Assembly (NCBI GenBank): GCA_030266365.1
Contig: JAJDHV010000001.1
Span: forward strand, 1-64,000
Length of the DNA: 64,000 nt
Direction: 5' to 3'
From: Synergistaceae bacterium OttesenSCG-928-I11
GTDB taxonomy: Bacteria; Synergistota; Synergistia; Synergistales; Synergistaceae
Of the stretch, positions 47,004 through 62,782 are shown piece by piece. A model generated the notes under the pieces. It was not told the origin of the DNA and made no database searches. It saw only the letters and a list, made by a program, of their open reading frames with translations. The position numbers and the translations under genes are program-made. Each line of letters opens with the position of its first letter. The first letter of the stretch is position 1.

Positions 47004-49016
47004 TCAGAATGTTAACTCAAGCAGATTGTCGCTCTTCTCCGGCGGTTTGATTTTCGACCGCCTGTCCATCTCGGCGTCCAGGAAGTATAAAACCTGTGTG
47101 CCGTAAATTGCCGAATATCCAGCCGGGAAGATGAGCATGTTCCCGGCGTCGACGACATCGCCGTTTGAATCCTTGCGCAGGCCGGGGAGTCTTCTGCACT
47201 CGTCCGGTGTCATCAAGGGGCGCTGCACTTCCTGGAGTGAGGTCTGGCGGGATTTATTGCCGAATAGCTTGCCTTCTTGTGTTGACTCCGAGAAATTTTC
47301 CTTTAAAACTGTTGTTTGTCCTGTCGATTTCGATAAATATTCACAAGTTTCAAAGTCATTTGGTGCGAATGCCACTTGAATGTGGCATCCAACTCGAATA
47401 CTTTCTTCTTTCCCATACGCTTTATAGAGCTGCGGCAGGCCCTGAACCATGATGTAACTTTTGAGTCCGTAACCGCCAATGAACCCCAGCGCACGCTCGA
47501 ACAAGTCCATCTTGCCAAGGCTGGGGAACTCGTCCAGAAGCAGTAACAGGCGATGTTTGTATGCTTCTGTGCTTCGTCCCTCCTTGAACTCCATCTTTGC
47601 AGCGAGCGTGAAGATGACCTGGGTCAGAACCAATCTTGTCAGGGGCATCAGGCGCAACTGGTCGTTGGGGTTGATGACGAGGTAGCAGGAGACGGGATCG
47701 TCGTGGTTCATGAGCTGACGAATCTTGAAGCTGCTCCTGCTCGTGTTGCGGGCTACGATGGGATCGCGAAAGAGCCCCATGTTGGATATGACCGTGGAGA
47801 GAACGCTTCCCGCCTCCTCGTCCGGCTTGTTGAGGATGCTCTGCGCCTCCTGCGCGACGATGGGATGGACGAGCGGCGCGACTGCCTCGTCGCCGTTCTG
47901 ACGAATGATTTTCTCGTAGCCGAGGTGCGGGTACTCCTGCCAGCCCTGGACGACCTTCTTCCACTCAAGTCCCGGTTTCGAGAGTTCGGTCAAAACGTCG
48001 GCGATGCCCGGACATCCGCGTCCCTCTATCTTATGCCTGTAGAGCAGGTGCGTGATCGCGCCCAGCATGAAGCTGGAGGCCGTCTTCGACCAATGATCCT
48101 CAAGCCCCTTTCCCTGCGGGTCTACGATGATCGACACTATTTGCTGAATTGTTGCTGTCTCGGTGTACGATCCGATTGGAACCAGCTTGAAGACTTCTAT
48201 TTCGGGGTTTTTCGGGTCGGGGCGTCTCTCACCGGGTGCGAAGTCGAAATCCAACACGACCTCTTCCAGTGGGTTGAACGTCGCGGACGTGCCCTTGTCG
48301 ATGGCGTCGGGGTCGGTGAAATCTAGCTTGAGGATTTTTTGCTTCAGCTCCTTCGCCCGATAACCTGCCGAGAGCGCATGATTCTCGGATTTGATGTCGA
48401 GCACGAAAACGCTCTGCTTCCAGCCGTCCAGCAACGTCGGCAGTACAAGGCTGATGCCCTTGCCCGATCTGGTCGGCGCGTAGCAGAGCACATGTTCTTT
48501 TCCCCCGTGGCGAAGCATTTTGACATCCTTCCCTACCTTCACGCCACCGACGACGACTCCCTCCTCGAAAGAATCTCCGTCGTTATCCAATAACCCTGCG
48601 TCCTTTATCTCCCTCAGCGTCGCCCAATGCGCCGAGCCGTGCAGGGACTCCAGACTCTCGCTCTTGCCGGTCATGTAGAACTTTCTCGCGGCGAAGACGG
48701 CGATCAGGAGGCCGCAGGAGAAGACGAAGGCGCTCATCGCGGCGACGGACGAGCGGGATTCCTCGTAAGCGGACATCAGGGTGTAGAGCCAGAAGGGCGC
48801 TTTGAAGAGCGGGTACAGCCGAAACCCTCCCAGTGAAATGTACCAGCCGAGATACGGGTGGTAATCGTAGGCGTGGGCGATGTACTGCGCCGTGATTTGC
48901 AGGTTCACCAGCGTGCAGAGGACGAAGGCGATGATCGCCTTCGTCCGGTAGCTCATTCCTTCTTTCTTCAAGCCCTGGAAGGAATAATCGCGCGTCCTTA
49001 CTACATTCCGTGCCAT
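47004..49016 (-). CDS. traG: Type IV coupling protein TraG/VirD4
   Basis: Membrane ATPase that hands the relaxase-DNA complex to the secretion channel. 670 residues: two N-terminal membrane regions (about 25-47 and 92-112), Walker A at about 180-188 (APTRSGKGIS), Walker B LLLLLDEFPSLGKMDLF at about 490-505, and ALGFIGGYGLKSYIMVQGLPQL typical of TraG. Start overlaps the ArdC-type gene stop (ATGA). No VirB4 or channel genes follow it here; the next gene to the left is cargo on the other strand. Confidence 0.93.
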   Translation of the reverse strand: MARNVVRTRDYSFQGLKKEGMSYRTKAIIAFVLCTLVNLQITAQYIAHAYDYHPYLGWYISLGGFRLYPLFKAPFWLYTLMSAYEESRSSVAAMSAFVFSCGLLIAVFAARKFYMTGKSESLESLHGSAHWATLREIKDAGLLDNDGDSFEEGVVVGGVKVGKDVKMLRHGGKEHVLCYAPTRSGKGISLVLPTLLDGWKQSVFVLDIKSENHALSAGYRAKELKQKILKLDFTDPDAIDKGTSATFNPLEEVVLDFDFAPGERRPDPKNPEIEVFKLVPIGSYTETATIQQIVSIIVDPQGKGLEDHWSKTASSFMLGAITHLLYRHKIEGRGCPGIADVLTELSKPGLEWKKVVQGWQEYPHLGYEKIIRQNGDEAVAPLVHPIVAQEAQSILNKPDEEAGSVLSTVISNMGLFRDPIVARNTSRSSFKIRQLMNHDDPVSCYLVINPNDQLRLMPLTRLVLTQVIFTLAAKMEFKEGRSTEAYKHRLLLLLDEFPSLGKMDLFERALGFIGGYGLKSYIMVQGLPQLYKAYGKEESIRVGCHIQVAFAPNDFETCEYLSKSTGQTTVLKENFSESTQEGKLFGNKSRQTSLQEVQRPLMTPDECRRLPGLRKDSNGDVVDAGNMLIFPAGYSAIYGTQVLYFLDAEMDRRSKIKPPEKSDNLLELTF

Positions 49017-50329
49017 TATCTCTTCATCCCCTCTCTGGCGAGTTCAGCCTTCTTCGCCTTTTCTGCGGCGCGCCCCTGGACGACGCTGTCTCCGTCCTCG
49101 TTCACAGAAAGATTCACGTCGTCGCCGATGTTCAACGAGGATTTTGCAGCGATATCCCTAACCGTGTGCAGAACCGCGTGGTTGTCCGATATTACCTGAA
49201 TTGCGGTTTTATCCGGGCCGTTGTCCAGAACGCCGACGATTTTCCCGCCGTAGGTCTTGTCCGGCTGGGCGTTGGTGACGATAGCGCCGCTGCCGAGATG
49301 TTTTTTGGCGGCCTCACGCGCCTCGGTGAACTTGCTCGGTGCTGCGCTGGTTTCATGGCGCGTCGCCGACGCTCTCAGCTCGTTCACCTGTGTCGCGGCT
49401 TTCGCCGTCGCCGCGACAACCGTCTCTTGCGTTGCCGAAAGATCGGCGTTGGGCCCGCCAAAAAGGTTGAAGTCGGCTCCTCGGGGAACAGTGACGGCTT
49501 CGGCGACAATCTCCTGCGCTTTTTGGGCTTCGATGCGCTGCTGCCCGGCACGAAATAAGTTTTCCTCCCTCTCCTGTGTCATGCTGCCGATGACGCTCTT
49601 CGCGATGTGGCTGCCGTCCCTGGTGGCCTTGTAGAGTTGAGAGGGGTCGTGGTGGATGCTCGACGCCCAGGATTTCGTCGGCAAGCCCTCTGCCTGCTCC
49701 ACCGGGAGACCGGCTTCGCGCATGACGACGGTCGAGGCGATGTTGTTGCGCAGGGCCATCAGCTCCGGCGTGTGGACATCCCGCCTGTAGCCTGCTTCCT
49801 CCGCGAATTTGGCGACGAGCTTTTTGATCGCGTCCTGAAAATCCTTGACGCTGCTGCCAGATTGAACATCGACACCGGCATTTTTGAGCATCTGTTCCGC
49901 TTTTTCCGTTCCGACAGCCGTAAGCGGCGATTCAGACGTTGGCAATTTCGAGAGGTCGCCGCTCAACTGCTTGACGTTGAAAACGGTATAGACCTGCGCC
50001 TCCACTTTGCCGCTCTCCTTCTCCTGCCAGCGCTCCAGCGGAACGCCCCGCTCACCTTTGCGCACCCAGAGGCCATGCTCGTTCGCGGCGCTCGCCGTGA
50101 TGAAGCGAGGGTCGTCGTAACTTTCCCTCGCGCACTTTTCGAGAAGGTAGAGCATGTTGACGCCGCCGTATTTGCCGCCGGAGACGGCACTCTGCACCGG
50201 AGGGATCGGCAACTTTTTATCCTGCCAAGGAACGACGCCTTGACTGAGCGAGCCAGCGACCCGCTCGGCAAATTCGTCACGCATTTTTTCCACACGCGCC
50301 TTCGCGCCTCTTGCCTCTGTCTGTGCCAT
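49016..50329 (-). CDS. ArdC-like ssDNA-binding protein with C-terminal KfrB-like domain
   Basis: 437 residues. N-terminal ArdC/DUF1738-type region (about 10-120): FAERVAGSLSQGVVPWQDKK, GGKYGGVNMLYLL and ANEHGLWVRKGERGVPLERW fit proteins that coat and protect incoming single-stranded plasmid DNA. The centre is helical. Residues about 345-415 (AIVTNAQPDKTYGGKIVGVL) resemble the KfrB-like module also present at the end of the large helicase. ATG 50329 follows a GGAGAGG site and lies 6 bases after a 51-codon gene; the traG start overlaps its stop. Confidence 0.8.
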   Translation of the reverse strand: MAQTEARGAKARVEKMRDEFAERVAGSLSQGVVPWQDKKLPIPPVQSAVSGGKYGGVNMLYLLEKCARESYDDPRFITASAANEHGLWVRKGERGVPLERWQEKESGKVEAQVYTVFNVKQLSGDLSKLPTSESPLTAVGTEKAEQMLKNAGVDVQSGSSVKDFQDAIKKLVAKFAEEAGYRRDVHTPELMALRNNIASTVVMREAGLPVEQAEGLPTKSWASSIHHDPSQLYKATRDGSHIAKSVIGSMTQEREENLFRAGQQRIEAQKAQEIVAEAVTVPRGADFNLFGGPNADLSATQETVVAATAKAATQVNELRASATRHETSAAPSKFTEAREAAKKHLGSGAIVTNAQPDKTYGGKIVGVLDNGPDKTAIQVISDNHAVLHTVRDIAAKSSLNIGDDVNLSVNEDGDSVVQGRAAEKAKKAELAREGMKR

Positions 50330-52964: not shown

Positions 52965-55900
52965 CTACCTGCTCATCGAGGCGGCTCTGGCCTGAACCTC
53001 CTGTGCGTTTGCCGAGCCTCGCAAATTCAGGTCATAAGCGATTTCAACAAACCCAACATCCAGCGGTTCATCGATATTTTTCAGAGCGTGGATGATGCCG
53101 CGCCCATCGTCGATTTTCTGCACGGCATACGCCGCGCCCATCTCCACGATTTCACCGGAGTACGTCTTGCCCTCCATCGCGTCGGTTACGATGGGAACGT
53201 CGCCGAGTTTTGCTTTTGCCGCAATGATGACGTTCTTGCGATCCTCCTGTATTTCCGCTTTGGACAATTCTTTCTGTTGGCGTATGTCTTCAAATCGAAC
53301 GATGTTATCCGCAAAACTTTGTGCGTCGTCTCCGGTTTCGACTAGAGTCTCACGAGTCTCATATTCCGTAACGCTCGTCGTTTCGGTTTCGTCGAACGCC
53401 GTTCCGTTTGCGGTCGGACGCCTGAACAGCGAATCCTCGTCCAGCCCGGCCTCTGTAAGTTCGTTCTGAAATTCGTACTCCTCGTCCTCGCCAAGCGTCA
53501 GCCCCTCCTCCTCTTCCTCGCCGCCGCGACTGTGATTGCTGATGTTCAATTCCAGATTCAGCTCGGCGAGCCGGGCGGATTTTTCGGTCAACTCCTGCTC
53601 CTGAGAAAACGGCTTCTCAAGCTCGGCTTGCGCGAGCTGAACCTGGTTCACGGCCTCTTTCAACTCCGTCTGCGTTTTTTGCAGTTTCTCCTCAAGGCCG
53701 TTCAGCACGTTATTGATGCGAGTAATCGTCCCCGATTCGCTGTCGCCGACGTTGATCCGGTGCTCCTCGTTGCCCTTTATCACCATCTGCGTTATGGCAA
53801 AGTGAGGGTTGAACTCCACGGTCATCTCAAAGCCGCGATACGAGCCTATTTGCATCGGATGAACGTCGACGTAGCCTCGAATCTCCTCCATCAGGGCCTT
53901 GCCTGCCTCGTCGCGCTTGTCGTAGGCGACGCCGGATATCGTCATCGGAGAGAATTCTTTGACGGATTCACCGGCATTGGCACGGTTCCGCTCGACATCT
54001 TGACTCAGTTTTTTTATCCGATATTCCAGCGCGTTTATCGTTCGCGGAAGCTCCTTGCGAAGCCTGTCCTGCAACGAATACTGGCTCTGCTGGTGCCCGG
54101 CTTTCGCTACGCGGAGCTTGGCAACCTGCACGTCCAGCTCCATCTTGAGTTTTATTTTCGGGTTACCAGCCGCCAGCGCCTTTATTTCGGCATAGCTCAG
54201 GACTGACTCGTCCACGTCCTCGCAGCTCCTGACAGGGTTCTTGTCCGTCATGATCTGCGAGATGAATTTCTGCTTCAACTCCAAAGTTTGAAAGAGGTAC
54301 GAATCAAAAGTGCCCTTCGTCACGTAGCGGAAAAGCTGTACTTCCGGGTTCTGGTTGCCCTGACGAAGAATGCGGCCCGCGCGTTGTTGGAGGTCACTTG
54401 GCCTCCATGGAGCATCGAGATCATGCAAGGCGATGAGCCTATCCTGAATGTTCGTGCCGACGCCCATCTTCTGCGTGGAGCCGAAGACGACGCGCACCTG
54501 CCCGCTCCTCACCTTCGCAAAAAGTTCCTTTTTCTGGAGGTCGGTTTCGTAATCGTGGATGAAGGCTATCTCGTTCTCGGGAATGCCCTTCTTCACCAGT
54601 TTCCACTTGATATCGTCGTAGACGTTGAATTTTTTTTGCGAGCCCTTCTTAGGTGTTGAGTAGTCGGAAAACACAGCCTGTGTCAGCCGTTCCTCCTTCG
54701 TGTCATTCCAAATTTTATAGATGTTCTCCATACAGGCGTTGACCTTGCTTCCCGCCGTATCCGGCAGTTGTTCGTTGATGAGGCGTTGGTCGAGGCCGAT
54801 TTTCCTGCCGTCAGTGGTAATCGCGAGCATGTTATCCTCGTGCGGCTCTACTCGACGGTCGCGAACAGCCTGCGCGCGTTTGGCGAGGTTTTTGATAAGG
54901 GCCTTCTGGATGTTGCTCGGCTCGACGGCGACGGTGGTGTATTTGCCCTCCGGACGGGGAAGGTCGAGCATCTCCGGTGTCTTGATGTCGGCAGCCTCCT
55001 TGAAAACCGACATCAGCTCCGGCAGGTTGTAGAATTTCGCGAAGCGTGTCCGAGCCCTATACCCGGAACCCTCCGGGGCCAGCTCGACGCTGGTCGTCGT
55101 CTCGCCAAAGACCGACGCCCAACTGTCAAAGTGTTCGAGCCCCATTTCGTTCAGCCGGTCGTGCTGCAAATACCGCATCATCGTAAATAATTCCGTCATT
55201 GAGTTGCTGATAGGGGTTCCTGTTGCAAAGACGACGCCGCGCCCGCCCGTGATCTCGTCCATGTAGCGGCACTTCATGTACATATCGCTTGACTTCTGCG
55301 CTTCCGTCTGCGGGATACCGGCAACGTTGCGCATTTTCGTCATCAGGAAGAGGTTTTTATAGTTGTGAGCCTCGTCGACATAGAGTTTGTCTATGCCCAG
55401 GCGCTCGAAGTCGATAACGTCGTCCTTCTTCTCCTGATCGGTCAACTTCTGGAGCCTGACCCTCAGGGATTTCAGCGTCTTTTCGAGTTTCTTGACGTTG
55501 AACTTGGCGCTGTGATCGCCGCGCATCTCCTCGATGGCGTCCATCGTCATGTCCATCTGCTGTTGGATGAGCTGCGCCTGACGCTCGACGGAGACGGGGA
55601 TGCGCTCGAACTGGCTGTGTCCCATGATGACGGCATCGTAATCCCCGGTCGAAATTTTTGCGCAGAATTTTTTTCTGTTCGCCGTCTCGAAGTCCTTCTT
55701 TCGAGCGACGAGGATGTTGGCGTTGGGGTAGAGTTTTTGGAACTCCGCCGCCGTCTGCTCGGTCAGGTGGTTGGGCACGACCATCAGGCTCTTGTTGGAG
55801 ATACCGAGTCGCTTCGATTCCATGATGGAGGCTATCATCTCGAACGTCTTGCCAGCGCCGACGCAGTGGGCCAGAAGCGTATTGCCGCCGTAGAGGGCGT

Positions 55901-58900
55901 GCGCGATGGCGTTCGTCTGATGCGGATTCAGCTTGATGAGGGGGTTCATGCCGGGAAAGGTCAGGTGCGAGCCGTCGTACTCGCGCGGGCGAATCTGATT
56001 GAACGTCTCGTTGTACTTCTCGACAAGAGCCTCCCTGCGGTCGGGGTCGCGGAATATCCAGTCCTTGAACGCGGTTTTTATCGCCTCCTGCTTGATTTGA
56101 GCTGCCGCCGTCTCCTCGCCGTTCAGGACAGGGCGCTCCTTGCCGTCCGGCCCCATCTCCATATCGTGAACGCGGACGTCCTGTAGATTGAGCGTGGCCT
56201 CCAGGATGGCGTAGGCGCTCACACGCTCGGTGCCGTAGGTGGAACTCGCCTGTACGCTGCCGGAGTCACGGCCCTTGTTCGTGATGTTCCATTCGGAAGA
56301 ATGGCTGGAATACTGCACCTCGATGGTGTTGCGCAGCCGCCAGGGCGTGTCGAGGAGTTCGTGCATGAACTCCTCGACGTACTTTTTGTCGACCCAGGTC
56401 GCGCCGAGCCGCACGTCGATCTCGTGGGCTTCGAGTTTTGGTGGAAGCGACGCTTCGAGTGCGGCCACGTTTTCCGCGAACAGCTCAGGTTCGCGCTCGG
56501 CGTATTCACGAGCAGCGAGTAACTTTTTTCTGATATTGCCGGAGAGGTATTCGCCTGCGGTCTCGTAGTGGAGGATTGTCGCTCCGTCGCGAACCTCGCT
56601 CTTTTCAGGATTCGCGAAGACGATGCCCTTCAGGTCGGATAAGATTTTATCCCGTTCCAACCCCGTGAGCGAAGACATGTAGTCGAGGTCGATCTTCGCT
56701 TTTTCGGAGATGGAGAGCAACAGCGCCTCGTTCGCGGTTTCGACGCGATCCGGGACGGCATGTCCTTTGACCGTGCGCTTGGTAAAAATATCGGCTTTGC
56801 GCTCCAACTCTTTTTCTTCGTTCAGGACTTCGAGCGTGGAGAGAAGGTAATAACCGGAGTCGTCCTCCATCGCCCGCGCGTTCGCGCGGTCGTTGATGAG
56901 ACCATATGTCGCCGTGAAGCTGTCGTAGGCGGAACTCAGCTCGCCTTGCAGCTTCGCCAGCTCGTCGTCGCCGCACTCGCGGTACTGCGCGTCGATGAGC
57001 GTCCGCGTGCAGTCGCGAAGTTCTATGAGCCCTCTCAGGCGTCCCGCCTGTAGCGACGGCAGCTCGATTTTGAACATGACGGAGTTTTCGCGGTAGTAGA
57101 TATCGTCGTCCACCAGGGCGTAGCTCCAGTTTCGGACGCCCGGGTCGGCGGGTATGGACTCCCGCGTCTGCTCTTCCGGCTCTGCGGCATAGTCCATGAA
57201 TTTTCCGTCTATCTTCGACAACGCTGTCTTTAGCTGCACCGCAAGGTTCTTTCCTGGGATGGGCTCGCAGGCCGTTTCCTCGTCGTTGCCGTACATGTTG
57301 CGGGAATGGATCATGCGCCCGAGCACCATTTCAGGGTGCGATGCGAAGTAGGAATTTACCGGGATACCGTCCTCGGTCTGCCCGAGATGCACCCAATCCG
57401 GCTCTGTCACGATGGGGCGCTCGCGCTTGCGCAGGAATATGATGTCGGCTGTCACTTCGGTTCCCGCATTGTCCTTGAAGGCGTCGTTCGGTAGCCGGAC
57501 GGCTCCGAGCAGTTCCGCGCGTTCGGCGAGATAGCGTCGTGTCGATGGGTTCGCCTTGTCGAGCGTCCCCTTCGAGGTGATGAACGCCACGACGCCGCCG
57601 GGACGAATGTGATCCAGGGATTTGGCGAAGAAGTAGTCGTGAATGTTAATTTTTTGCGCTTCGTACTTGGGGTCGAAGACACGGTAGTTGCCGAACGGCA
57701 CGTTGCCGATGGCCAAATCGAAGAAATTTTCGCGGAAATTCGTCTCCTCGAATCCCTTGACCTCTATCTTCGCATTCTGATAGAGCTGTCTCGCGATGCG
57801 GCCTGATACGCCGTCAAGTTCGACGCCGTAGAGCTTGGCGTCCTTCATGCTCTCGGGCAGCAATCCGAAGAAGTTGCCGACGCCCATCGACGGCTCCAGG
57901 ACGTTGCCCTTGGTGAAGCCCATGTTTCCCACGGCTTCATAGACGGCGCGAATAACGGTGGGAGAGCTGTAAAAGGCGTTGATCGTCGTCGCCCGCGCCG
58001 CTTTGTACTCCTCGGCGCTGAGAAGTTCTTTCAGCTCTCGATATTCCTTGCCCCACGACTCGTTCTGGCTGTCGAACGCCTGCGATATCGCGCCCCAAGA
58101 GACGTATTTGGATAGAGTGCTCTGCTCCTCCGGTGTGGCGAGGCGATTTTCCGACTCTATTTTCCGCAGGGTGCGGATGGCCTCGACGTTGTTGCGGTAT
58201 TTTGTCTTGGCCCCGCCGTAGCCGAGCGCGTCGTCGGTGATGCGGAAATCCAGCTTGGGCTGCGCCGGGGCTTGTGCTTCGTCCTCGCGTAGAGCTTCTG
58301 TTTCCGGTGCGGGTGCGAGTTCATCGTTTTTCGGTTCGAGGATGGCGGGTTGCGGCTCGCTTTGCGAAAAGATTTCTTCTCCGGCAACCTTCGCTTGTTC
58401 CGCCTGTTCTATTTCCTCAATCTTCTCGATCTGTTCCTCCTCGGATGGAAAGATGGAGAGCTGATTCACGCCGCCGTTCTTATCCCGCTTCCTTGAGGGT
58501 TTTTTCGGCGGAACAGACGCGACGGAGGAAGCGGCGGCGGTGCGCTCCGCTTCCTCCGGTCGGTCTTTTGAGAAATTTTCTTCGTTTCCTCTATGTATAG
58601 ATGAAGAATCTACGCGAAGATGAGTTCCCTCGTCACGATCTCTTCCGCGCGGGCCTTCAAATTCTCCATGCACCCGACCCACGCCATCGGGTCGTTCGTC
58701 TTGTCCGGCGCGGGCTCCTTCTCCAGCGTCCTCTCGATGAACAGGTTCACCTGCCGACGCGCCGTCTCGTCCACCTCCTCCAGATGGCTGTACAGCTCGC
58801 CCTTCAATTGTAGCGTCGTATATAGCACTTTGTCGTTCGTCTCCAGATGTCGCCGTCTCATCAGGGCGTATTTGCCCAATGGCTTCGTCGGAACGTCGTC

Positions 58901-59705
58901 CAGCTCTATCGCCGGAATCAGATAATCTCCCGCCTGTACGTACTCTATCTCCATCATTGCTCCTGCTCCTTTCAATTCTGTCGCGAGACTGAATCCAGCG
59001 ATCCACATTTTTGACGGTGCGCTCTATGTTTCGGAGTATCCCCTCGGATATCTCGCCGACCGCGAGGCCTAACTCGGATATTTCCTCCGGTGTGCTAAAA
59101 CTCTGGAGTTGCTCGAATGACTCCGGTAATTTTTCCGATGCCTCTGCATCGAGGCCGCAACGGGAGAGAACACAATAGACGACGCTGTCCGATATCAGTT
59201 CCCTCGTTTGCGGGTCGTTAGTATAGCTTGACGTGATTTTTTTAACAATACTCGTGAGCTGCTCTTTTGTGTCGGGATCGTCGAAGCCATAAGTTTTCCC
59301 GAGCATTCCCTTCACTGGGTTCAGGTGTTCTTCGCCCATTCGCCATATATACGGGGTGGGTTGGCCGATGTGACGCTGGTACGTGTCGCGGACATCGAAC
59401 ACGTATTTGAGAACCGGCTGCTGCCGGTTCGAGTTGTCGATGAGCGCGATGCCCTTGGAGCCGCGTTTCACCCATCTGTGCATCCGTTCGTTCCAGAACT
59501 CGATAGAAGCGCAGGCGACGGCCTCGTGCCGCTGCGCGTGGATGAGCATCTGGTCGGCGAAGGAGTATTTGTACATCCTGCCGACGCAGGAGAGGAACGA
59601 AGCCCAGGTCGCGGAGTCCTTCGTCACCTCCCCGATGTGCGCGGAGAAGATATCCGCCGTGCGTTGCAGTTTCGGGTTTCGGAATTTGCCATTGAGTAGT
59701 TCCAT
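52965..59705 (-). CDS. Giant DNA methylase / SNF2-type helicase of conjugative elements
   Basis: 2246 residues. Residues 1-130 are an ArdC-like N-terminal region ([21 protein letters not shown]); 245-400 an Arg/Gly/Asp-rich linker overlapping tnpV in another frame; about 590-690 an N6-adenine methylase fold ([20 protein letters not shown] in place of NPPF); about 1270-1850 a helicase with Walker [21 protein letters not shown], a conserved [16 protein letters not shown] and [16 protein letters not shown]; coiled-coil then acidic linker; 2160-2235 a KfrB-like tail. Such fusions are common on Gram-positive ICEs and may protect or process transferred DNA. The IGNVPFG change may weaken catalysis. 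It lies 12 bases after the relaxase stop, in its operon. Confidence 0.9.
58610..58957 (-). CDS. tnpV: TnpV-like protein gene nested in the helicase gene (+1 frame)
   Basis: 115 residues entirely inside the helicase coding region, same strand, shifted by one base. It reads [21 protein letters not shown], then [25 protein letters not shown], then [20 protein letters not shown] and ends TRELIFA, which resembles TnpV proteins of conjugative transposons from end to end (segments quoted in order). AAAGGAG lies 8 bases before ATG 58957. In the helicase frame the same bases give a low-complexity R/G/D/E-rich linker, so constraint appears to be on TnpV. TnpV function is unknown. Both frames are open; dual expression is inferred. 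Confidence 0.75.
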
Positions 59706-59717
59706 AGTCCGTTTATT

Positions 59718-62402
59718 TCACCTTCCTTTATATTGCCTTTGTGCCTGCTGCTGCTGTTGTGTCATGCTGCGCCCTTCGAGGCGCAGATATAGGGGCTGAT
59801 ACTGCAAGGCTCTTTGATATTGAATCGTGCCTCGTGCCCCGAAGACGAATTTCTCCGTCGTCTCCGACGCATAGCGACTCCAGTCCCGATTGCGGTATTT
59901 GGCGTCGAAAGCCTCTGCGGTCATGTTCTCCCGGCGCATGGCGGGGCCGTTGGATTCGATGGCGTTTTTCACTTCGCTCTGCGAGTAGCCGGTCACCCTC
60001 ATGCGGATGCCGATCATGGCGTCGATGCGGGAGTAGTCGATCTGCCCGGGATCGCCCATAGATTTCGAGACGATATCGCGGTAGTGAGTCCAGTACGCGC
60101 CGTTCGGGTCGTTAGGGCCGTTGGAAGAATTCGAAGCAGAGGCGTTGGTATTTTTCACGATACTCGCCGCCACGCGCTCTTTCGCCTCGATCTCCTTCTG
60201 TGCCTTCTGCTGCTGGGCATAAATCTCCCTAAGCTCGGCGCGAGCCTTTTCGCAGATGCCTCCGTTCGTTTCCGTCAATGTCGTTAATGGGTAACTACCG
60301 TCCTCGCGCCGATGTTTCGGCTTGCAGTTCGGGAATGGCGGCAGTCGGTGTCCGTGGACGGAGCCGGAGAGCTTCGGGTCGCCGTATTCCTGATTCAACA
60401 GCTTTGTCAGCCTGTTTGCGGCTTCGCGGTCTTTTGAGGTGTCGCCGAGAACGCTTGGAACTGTGAGAATCGCCTGATAGTTTCCCGGACTGGACTCGAT
60501 GACACAGGCGGGAGCGTAGCCGTCGCCTTTCAGGCGCTGCAAATTCTCCGGCGTGAGGTCGTCCACGAGGATGTGGTGTTTGTCTGGGCTCATGGGTGTG
60601 ACGATGATGTTTTTGTTGTAGTAGCTGAATGCTGAAAATTTTGATATTGCCTCCAATAGCTCTTCTTTTTTCTTTCCTTCATAGCCGCCGTTTTGTTTGT
60701 CGAAGAGGAACGCCTTCGTGCCGCCTTTGGTCATCTCCGTTACGACGACGCGGAAGCGCTCGGCCCCAACTGCGTCGGCGTAGTTGCCGACTATTTCTTT
60801 TTTCTGCATGTCGTTTCTTATCTGCACCTTCTCCTTCCTTTTTTCCTCGATCTGTTTCGCGAGGTCGGGGTTTGAAATTCTCAAGTTATGCGCGGCTGCG
60901 AGTTCCACACACTTACGCTTGTACTCGTCTGTGCCCTGAATCTCTGCGGAGCCCCACTTCTGGTTGGCGAGTTGCAGGGCGGCGAGGATAGCGTCGTCGT
61001 TGGTGTTCTCCGCGAGGATGATTTTTTTGCCGTAATCGATGAACCCAGCTTGCTGGCTACCGTCCGCGACATAGGCGACGCCGCCCTTGCTGCTCTGTGC
61101 CGGTTTGAATTGGCGTAAGTCTGCATGGGCCTTGGACGTGTCCTGATTTTGATCTAGTGGCGCGCCGAAGATAGCACCCTGGTTGGGGTATCTGAAATTC
61201 AGGATGGGTGCCTGCTCGTAGCCCTCTTCGAGCCAACGCTTGAAATTCTTGAAGCGGCGGGGGTAACTCTTGCGAAACGCTTCTATTTCCTTCTTCTGGA
61301 TGTCGGCGAGGTCGAGCTTTTCACCCTGCTGCTTTGCCGCCATAATGCTGCGCTGGCGGTTGAGAAGTGCGCCGCGCCCTTTCCACGAACCGGCGAAGGC
61401 TGTCTGACGTTCGTTTTTTTGAGCGTCGTGCAGTTCGGCGCGTTCTTTTTTGTGACGTTCTTTGAGTGCCTCCAATGCGTCGGATTTGTCCGTGTAATAC
61501 TGGCTACGCGCTGCGGAATATCGCTCCCAATCCGATTTGACGCCGCGTTTTTCAACCTGCTCGACAGGCTCCGGCTGCCGTTCTGTGACGATGATGTTTT
61601 CGGGGCGCTGTTCATAGGCCCCCAACCGCTCGCAAAGTTTTGACAGGCTGATGTCGCGCCCCGCCGTCGAGGCTTTGACAGCCGTGTCGCCGATCCACAA
61701 AATAGCGCCGCTGCCCTTTTTCTCGAAAGCGATGCCCTGTTCGGCAAGGCGGCTGTGGAGTTGCTGCCAGTTCGGAGCTTTGCGAATGATGTCGGCGGCG
61801 ATCTCCTGCGCGATACGTTCGGCGCTCTTGGTGGCGGTATGAACCTCGCCATCCTTCGCGTTCTGCGAGATGGCGCGGTCGCCGGATTTTTTCTTCTCGA
61901 CGATCTGGCCGTCGTCGGTGACGAGGAAAAATCCGTTTTGCTCGACCTCCCAACCCTGCGCCAGTTCGATCTTCCTCGCCGCCAACTCCGTAGCCTTGTA
62001 CGTCCAACCGTTCGCCGGGAGGACTGCTTTCAGAGTCTCGGGGTGAATTCGGTTGACGACGACGTGGACGTGTTGGTTCTCGGTATCCCGCTGAAGAACC
62101 CATAATGCCTGGCAATCCTGCAAATTCAGCTCTTGCAGCAGGATTCCGACCGCCTCGTCGACCTGGGCGTCGGTGGGCAGTTCGTGTTCGCGCCACGACA
62201 AGATGGCGTGAAAGACGGGGTCTTTGCAGCGTTTGTTGTCCGTCGCAAGGGCCTCCATCTCGATTGCCGCCGTTTCTGCGGAAAGGATGTGCTGGTAGCC
62301 GACGTGCGCGGTTTTCAAAGAATCGTGGGTGAGACAGTAGGAGACTAGGTCTTTGAAGCTACTCTTGCCATCGTTCCGTTTGTCAGGGATTTTGCCGATC
62401 AC
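59718..62402 (-). CDS. MOBP-type relaxase with LPD7 and RepB-primase-like domains
   Basis: Nicks oriT and leads the strand into the recipient. 894 residues. Relaxase domain 1-about 250: FKDLVSYCLTHD with Tyr22, placed like the catalytic Tyr of RP4 TraI, FHAILSWREHELPT, and HVHVVVNRIHPET (111-123) with metal-binding histidines. A charged coiled region follows, then LPD7 (about 455-545, VAYVADGSQQAGFIDYGKKI and ILAALQLANQKWG), and a RepB-like primase region (about 565-720, FRVVVTEMTKGGTKAFLFDK, SSPGNYQAILTVPS). The primase could start complementary-strand synthesis after transfer. Start overlaps the mobC stop by 4 bases. Confidence 0.9.
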   Translation of the reverse strand: MIGKIPDKRNDGKSSFKDLVSYCLTHDSLKTAHVGYQHILSAETAAIEMEALATDNKRCKDPVFHAILSWREHELPTDAQVDEAVGILLQELNLQDCQALWVLQRDTENQHVHVVVNRIHPETLKAVLPANGWTYKATELAARKIELAQGWEVEQNGFFLVTDDGQIVEKKKSGDRAISQNAKDGEVHTATKSAERIAQEIAADIIRKAPNWQQLHSRLAEQGIAFEKKGSGAILWIGDTAVKASTAGRDISLSKLCERLGAYEQRPENIIVTERQPEPVEQVEKRGVKSDWERYSAARSQYYTDKSDALEALKERHKKERAELHDAQKNERQTAFAGSWKGRGALLNRQRSIMAAKQQGEKLDLADIQKKEIEAFRKSYPRRFKNFKRWLEEGYEQAPILNFRYPNQGAIFGAPLDQNQDTSKAHADLRQFKPAQSSKGGVAYVADGSQQAGFIDYGKKIILAENTNDDAILAALQLANQKWGSAEIQGTDEYKRKCVELAAAHNLRISNPDLAKQIEEKRKEKVQIRNDMQKKEIVGNYADAVGAERFRVVVTEMTKGGTKAFLFDKQNGGYEGKKKEELLEAISKFSAFSYYNKNIIVTPMSPDKHHILVDDLTPENLQRLKGDGYAPACVIESSPGNYQAILTVPSVLGDTSKDREAANRLTKLLNQEYGDPKLSGSVHGHRLPPFPNCKPKHRREDGSYPLTTLTETNGGICEKARAELREIYAQQQKAQKEIEAKERVAASIVKNTNASASNSSNGPNDPNGAYWTHYRDIVSKSMGDPGQIDYSRIDAMIGIRMRVTGYSQSEVKNAIESNGPAMRRENMTAEAFDAKYRNRDWSRYASETTEKFVFGARGTIQYQRALQYQPLYLRLEGRSMTQQQQQAQRQYKGR

Positions 62403-62725
62403 TGCTCTCGATTCCTATTACTGGAAAATTCTTCGTTCATTTTGTGAACGTAATTGCTGATCTCGTCGATTGCCTTAGAGGTTTTCGCGCTGTATGCGCC
62501 CTTGCTCTCGTTGTGAATATGCTTGAGGAGGCCGCCGATGCGACGTAGCTCCGACAGCACGCGCAGGTCGGTCTTGGCCGAAACGCGCTTGCCGAGACCG
62601 CGCTGACGCAAGAATGAGGATACCGACAGACCGCACAGGTCGGCTTCGTCGGCGAGAAATGTCTGCTCCTCCTCGGTTACTCGAAAGGAAATTCTGATGG
62701 TTCGTTTTTCGTGATTTGGTTTCAT
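62399..62725 (-). CDS. mobC: MobC/TraJ-like relaxosome accessory protein
   Basis: 108 residues: ribbon-helix-helix-like N-terminus (RTIRISFRVTEEEQTFLADEADLCGLSVSSFLRQRGLG, about residues 8-46) and a helical C-terminus with LRVLSELRRIGGLLKHIHNES, the MobC/PF05713 pattern. Binds oriT and recruits the relaxase. ATG 62725 follows TGGAGG. First gene of the mobC-relaxase-helicase operon, with the conserved promoter box upstream. Confidence 0.88.
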   Translation of the reverse strand: MKPNHEKRTIRISFRVTEEEQTFLADEADLCGLSVSSFLRQRGLGKRVSAKTDLRVLSELRRIGGLLKHIHNESKGAYSAKTSKAIDEISNYVHKMNEEFSSNRNREQ

Positions 62726-62736
62726 GCTTCGCCTCC

Positions 62737-62782
62737 ACAATCGTTTTTTCGATTGTATGGGCGGTTTGGGGGGCTGTTGATA
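62737..62782 (-). promoter_or_regulatory. Candidate mobC promoter with conserved 18-bp box and operator-like palindrome
   Basis: Plus-strand TTTGGGGGGCTGTTGATA (62765-62782) is identical to the copy at 50617-50634. On minus, TCAACA (62780-62775) and TACAAT (62757-62752) are 17 bases apart. ACAATCG/CGATTGT (62737-62743, 62750-62756) forms an inverted repeat that overlaps the -10 and abuts the mobC Shine-Dalgarno, suiting autoregulation by MobC or control of translation. Confidence 0.65.

Follow-up and report, generated by a model that had tools for sequence, protein, structure and literature searches.

The window analyzed here, a 64,000-nucleotide stretch of contig JAJDHV010000001.1 of Synergistaceae bacterium OttesenSCG-928-I11, contains on the minus strand an open reading frame for a 2246-residue protein (positions 52965..59705) in which an ArdC-like head, an adenine methylase and an SNF2-type helicase are joined (Pfam Eco57I, SNF2-rel_dom, ResIII and Helicase_C). 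The head, residues 1-250, is predicted to be folded (58956..59705; AF2 pLDDT mostly 80-98), and the methylase region (57411..58268; Eco57I) and the helicase core (54126..55988; SNF2-rel_dom and Helicase_C) each form a conserved alignment block. A second gene on the same strand, tnpV (58610..58957), which encodes 115 amino acids, begins with ATG ATG and ends with TAG, lies 100% within the helicase frame at an offset of +1 (59705 - 58957 = 748, that is, 1 modulo 3). It is preceded by an internal Shine-Dalgarno (SD) sequence, AAAGGAG (58966..58972), 8 nucleotides 5' of the first ATG. Read in the helicase frame, the bases of tnpV (58608..58955) encode a linker of residues ~251-366, which is predicted to be disordered (AF2 pLDDT 35-54 from about residue 251, immediately after the well-folded head). 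The ORF coordinates agree with a preliminary description of this DNA, which placed tnpV wholly within the 2246-codon gene, in the +1 frame of the same strand, with AAAGGAG 8 bases ahead of its ATG; the linker, characterized there as low-complexity and R/G/D-rich, is indeed rich in R, G, D and E.

The other genes of this neighborhood, all on the minus strand, include a relaxase/primase immediately upstream of the helicase gene (59718..62402; Pfam Relaxase, TraI_middle, LPD7 and RepB_primase), a NikA-like mobilization protein (62399..62740; PF21983, E 3e-23), a separate ArdC-type protein (49016..50329; ArdcN, E 2e-14) and a type IV coupling protein of the TraG/TraD type (47004..49016; T4SS-DNA_transf, E 4e-89). 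Given these neighbors, the locus belongs to an element that is conjugative or mobilizable, and the same company suggests that TnpV may assist in the processing of the element's DNA as an accessory factor.

The 115-residue frame is a full-length TnpV protein (PF14198; 110.1 bits against a cut-off of 27, profile positions 1-111, E 7.2e-32). The resemblance to TnpV throughout, noticed in the preliminary description, is thus an end-to-end profile match of 110 bits, and the absence of an HMM match, which the preliminary description had named as evidence against the gene, did not occur. Like the tnpV genes of Tn4451 and Tn6104-6106, that of the window belongs to a mobile element; unlike them, described as ordinary separate genes, it resides entirely inside another gene. 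The AF2 model of the protein (pLDDT 89.7) consists of a hairpin and four helices, for which a structure search found no significant match in the PDB or in viral structure libraries; PDB sequence searches were without a match as well, and the weak viral structure match, Q8W6J4, had a probability of 0.98 but an E-value of 0.55. In PMC3158075, which cites Bannam 1995, a role of TnpV in excision is only postulated, by likeness to lambda Xis, and the idea of a lambda-Xis-like excision factor gains no support here because the fold has no significant PDB match.

For the head of the helicase protein, sequence and structure comparisons give different answers. No match to Pfam ArdcN (PF08401) was detected by sequence, even at E 10, and the hhalign comparison with the window's own ArdC-type protein is weak. 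By contrast, the top three PDB matches of the head model are all structures of R388 ArdC (the best is 6i89, probability 1.00, E 1.8e-3), and these are the sole good matches in the PDB (probability 1.00, E 1.8e-3 to 4.8e-3, TM-scores 0.28-0.40, the query-normalized score being lowered by the disordered linker included in the model). The earlier designation of the head as ArdC-like therefore holds at the level of the fold and not at that of the sequence. Large proteins combining ArdC-N, a methylase and an SNF2 helicase are known among the polyvalent proteins described from phages and conjugative elements (PMC5512222), which the host gene resembles; the searchable text of that paper does not describe the hidden frame, the phrase "reading frame" occurring once, in another context.

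For homologous large proteins, the preliminary description had posed the question whether tnpV is separate or nested. Among relatives of the helicase, gathered with search patterns derived from those parts of the helicase alignment that lie outside tnpV, it is nested in every one of the 84 helicase ORFs in which head and methylase share one open frame, and always directly follows the head; 68 of 68 such ORFs from named genomes and 8 of 8 from viral contigs are within this count. The frame offset is identical in all 147 nested copies counted. Given that the other alternative frame across tnpV contains on average 14 stops, this uniformity is not in itself evidence of a single origin. Nested copies are found in Synergistota, Clostridia, Bacilli, Negativicutes and phage contigs, to which plasmid records add Cohnella, Monoglobus, Anaerococcus, Streptococcus, Listeria, Virgibacillus, Ruminococcus, Enterococcus and Selenomonas; where tnpV is missing from a locus in the named genomes, the contig is in most cases truncated on its 5' side. 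Fourteen further helicases from viral contigs, all headless, are accompanied by a tnpV-like frame, mostly just 5' of the methylase domain and in most cases weak (23-66 bits). On phage contigs, very large ORFs (L145, L146, L152, L156, L163 and L165; 2992 to 7345 codons) show a weak tnpV-like frame just 5' of the methylase and no ArdC-like head. In proteobacterial and Bacteroidota relatives of the helicase (Campylobacter, Burkholderia, Rhizobium, Acetobacter, Vibrio and Phocaeicola), neither head nor tnpV is detectable, so that these can serve only as a nest-free outgroup. On a Dermacoccus plasmid (L307:5589-5849), the +1 frame ahead of an actinobacterial helicase gives a marginal match to TnpV (26 bits), which might mean that the nest reaches Actinomycetota. 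Broken or rearranged copies also occur: one genome (G021) has an intact copy on contig C58 and two broken head-tnpV segments on other contigs (L043 and L044), and in the nearest relative of the window (G050), the head is followed by a tnpV start cut short by rearrangement.

The pattern of substitutions shows which frame dominates selection in the overlap. Among close pairs of relatives, on which the codon-position tests were taken (a search for close relatives of the window gave none with an intact overlap, tnpV being interrupted in G050, and the case of the window rests on the family), differences at helicase codon positions 1/2/3 amount to.162/.104/.364 in the head,.216/.100/.065 in the tnpV segment and.114/.075/.470 in the core. 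Head and core thus vary most at the third position of helicase codons. Within the overlap, the fastest position is instead the first of the helicase codon, which corresponds to tnpV position 3, and this flip identifies TnpV as a selected protein. At 5-15% DNA difference, residue change in TnpV is about half that in the helicase frame (0.105 vs 0.247). Its evolution marks the nested frame as protein-coding, and constraint confined to the helicase frame, the pattern which, according to the preliminary description, would speak against tnpV, was not observed: constraint acts mainly on the tnpV frame and more weakly on the helicase frame. The possibility that only the helicase is real, the likeness to TnpV being a shadow of a conserved linker on which the Pfam family itself was built, might draw on the frequent lack of a TnpV annotation in helicase-bearing records. 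It is refuted by the codon-position flip, with substitutions following tnpV codons, unless this flip were produced by faulty alignment, and is at odds with the folded TnpV model, with the conserved SD and ATG, and with the frequency of standalone tnpV genes, which, in the sampled loci, occur without a helicase nearby as commonly as nested ones (46 and 37, respectively); we consider its probability negligible.

An SD sequence of at least 5 nucleotides precedes the tnpV start in 72 of the 79 nested copies analyzed, compared with 18 that control starts would give, and is missing in 7 of the 79; every one of the 79 was assigned an ATG start, under a choice rule that favors ATG on ties. Translated in the helicase frame, the SD gives E-R-S or a similar motif, and the arginine codon is AGG in 53 of 56 E-R motifs, as opposed to 8% at other Glu-Arg pairs of these genes, which implies that the nucleotides rather than the amino acid are conserved. 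Judging by this conserved SD and ATG, the nested tnpV has a translation start of its own. In the Synergistota relatives L034-L036, L038 and L039, the best SD and ATG lie ~180-215 nucleotides upstream of the TnpV domain; such a position, some 200 nucleotides upstream in a few copies, implies forms of TnpV with N-terminal extensions of ~60-70 residues. Around the tnpV start in the window, no Rfam family was found, and no RNA structure exceeded that of shuffled sequences. The latter result bears on another way in which TnpV could be produced, namely ribosomal frameshifting from the helicase frame, which would yield a head-TnpV fusion and no free TnpV. The arrangement on the same strand in the +1 frame is compatible with frameshifting, but the conservation of SD and ATG at a narrow spacing speaks against it, and in several loci (L116, L062, L080 and L053) the tnpV frame is open for only 2-4 codons 5' of the domain, leaving almost no room for a shift. 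Frameshifting accordingly appears very improbable.

The helicase frame, for its part, is free of stops across tnpV in all 79 nested copies. When each tnpV was recoded synonymously with the codon usage of its host gene, the frame remained open with a mean probability of 0.004, so that 0.3 open copies would be expected and chance is excluded; shuffling of tnpV's own codons leaves the frame open with a probability of 0.09. Standalone tnpV copies mostly contain several stops in the helicase-type frame. Four-fold degenerate sites of tnpV differ by 0.206, compared with 0.392 in the head and 0.383 in the core for the same pairs, an approximately two-fold slowdown. At equal divergence of the TnpV protein, four-fold sites change less in nested than in standalone copies in the better-populated bins above 12% divergence (0.463 vs 0.609 in the 30-40% bin), whereas in the 5-12% bin, with only six standalone pairs, nested change is not below standalone change. 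The linker is almost free of Cys, and in 71 of 76 cases its content of large hydrophobic residues is below that of synonymous shuffles that keep the frame open; the depletion of Cys, Tyr, Lys and large hydrophobics goes beyond what openness of the frame demands. Taken together, these data show that the host helicase frame is also constrained inside the overlap.

Exceptions to the intact outer frame were nevertheless observed. In Lutispora thermophila, tnpV is intact, but one TGA within it (L055:10865-10867) interrupts the helicase frame and separates head and helicase into two ORFs; either the full-length helicase is dispensable somewhere or this copy is broken, so that the locus offers an experiment of nature on the need for the fused protein. 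A Fretibacterium MAG (L039:4639-11382, minus strand, the same as locus L098) has one in-frame stop 3' of tnpV, which divides the helicase frame into two neighboring ORFs (815 and 1433 codons), and on a Cohnella herbarum plasmid (L290), a break lies close to the C-terminal end of the helicase frame, with tnpV annotated and no helicase gene listed. The Lutispora stop, together with the disorder and variability of the linker and with annotations in Monoglobus and Selenomonas that start the helicase 3' of tnpV, could be taken to mean that TnpV is the only real protein of this segment, the helicase frame being open by chance or composition, and that head and helicase are separate products, the latter made by reinitiation after tnpV. 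Openness in 79 of 79 copies against 0.3 expected, the slowing of tnpV four-fold sites and the biased composition of the linker all argue against such an arrangement, which we regard as improbable.

With regard to the origin of the overlap, the fit of the tnpV frame to the synonymous codon usage of the host gene (-1.085) is close to that of the head (-1.035), and that of the linker frame (-1.328) is near the out-of-frame control (-1.415). A folded and a disordered product are the usual marks of the older and the newer of two overlapping frames, respectively. Because tnpV fits the host gene in codon usage and encodes a protein that is folded in the model, as opposed to the disordered linker, these comparisons suggest that tnpV is the older frame and that the linker arose on top of it by overprinting at the time of gene fusion; this polarity, an indirect one as far as it comes from codon usage, fits a fusion across a pre-existing tnpV. 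Distances between TnpV proteins correlate with those between the helicases (r = 0.72, 26 loci), indicating that both travel together. In a TnpV tree that is midpoint-rooted, poorly resolved and has long branches (113 columns, 158 rows), 46 standalone copies fall into several groups among 112 nested ones, with 11 changes of state, a scatter that hints at repeated escape from the nest. In one Synergistota relative (L045:6375-6656, minus strand), a standalone tnpV has no helicase near it, and the helicase-type frame is open across the whole domain; this copy is possibly a recent escapee. The scattered standalone copies, and the fact that every head-bearing helicase examined is nested, also lend some weight to the reverse order of events, in which tnpV was born by overprinting within the helicase linker and later escaped as a standalone transposon gene. 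The agreement of codon usage with the host gene in the tnpV frame and its lack in the linker frame, the predicted folding of TnpV compared with the disorder of the linker, and the poor resolution and midpoint rooting of the supporting tree count against this order, which we hold to be unlikely, although less so than the other alternatives considered above. It bears on the origin alone and would leave the synthesis of two proteins untouched.

We therefore consider it highly probable that the same strand of DNA yields two proteins, a read-through helicase and an internally started TnpV, following a fusion across tnpV. Under this scheme, ribosomes initiating at the ATG of the helicase gene (59705) would read through to produce the 2246-residue ArdC-like/methylase/helicase protein, in which bases 58608-58955 would be translated into a flexible linker rich in charged residues. 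A further set of ribosomes would bind at AAAGGAG (58966-58972) and begin at position 58957 with the ATG of the shifted frame, to make the folded 115-residue TnpV. Most likely, an ardC-like gene, tnpV and a methylase-helicase gene were joined into one open frame across tnpV, which would have kept its own start while its bases were overprinted as linker. Conjugative and mobilizable elements would since have passed on the nest as one unit, alongside separate tnpV copies, some of which are probably escapees. Translation of both proteins in cells is inferred here from the sequence signatures. The preliminary description had offered two proteins from the same bases and a gene row fused across tnpV as alternatives; each has found support, and the evidence favors both together rather than a choice between them.

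When a long gene overlap on the same strand is met in a bacterial genome, it is usually dismissed as an annotation error. In the survey of 338 genomes by Palleja et al., no co-directional overlap of at least 60 bp was found to be real, the longest real one being 56 bp (PMC2478687); the tnpV overlap is likewise on the same strand, but spans 348 bp, is wholly nested and is conserved. Out-of-frame nested bacterial genes are already known, as exemplified by comS within srfAB of Bacillus subtilis (PMC12915044), also a small gene in a distinct frame of a giant one. The comS case is experimentally established, whereas the nested tnpV, identified here computationally, spans phyla and belongs to a family with standalone members. 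A literature search of open-licence papers found no report of the tnpV-helicase overlap. An overlap of 348 bp that is maintained across phyla, with both frames measurably under selection and a known family in the inner frame, runs counter to the view of such overlaps as errors. It also exposes a systematic fault of annotation: among nine annotated records, three contain tnpV and a shortened or missing helicase, six contain the helicase without tnpV, and none includes both genes in full.

The nest provides a large natural data set on the co-evolution of two proteins encoded in one stretch of DNA, and it places the little-studied TnpV beside the machinery of DNA transfer and not only beside resistance genes. 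As a tentative extension, to which we assign somewhat less than even chances, the nest may be the reservoir state of the TnpV family, as old as the ArdC-headed helicases, with the tnpV genes of resistance transposons representing repeated escapes and the shared message coupling the supply of both proteins. If this is the case, production of TnpV within the helicase message would tie the two supplies to each other, as both proteins would act in the same step of DNA transfer.
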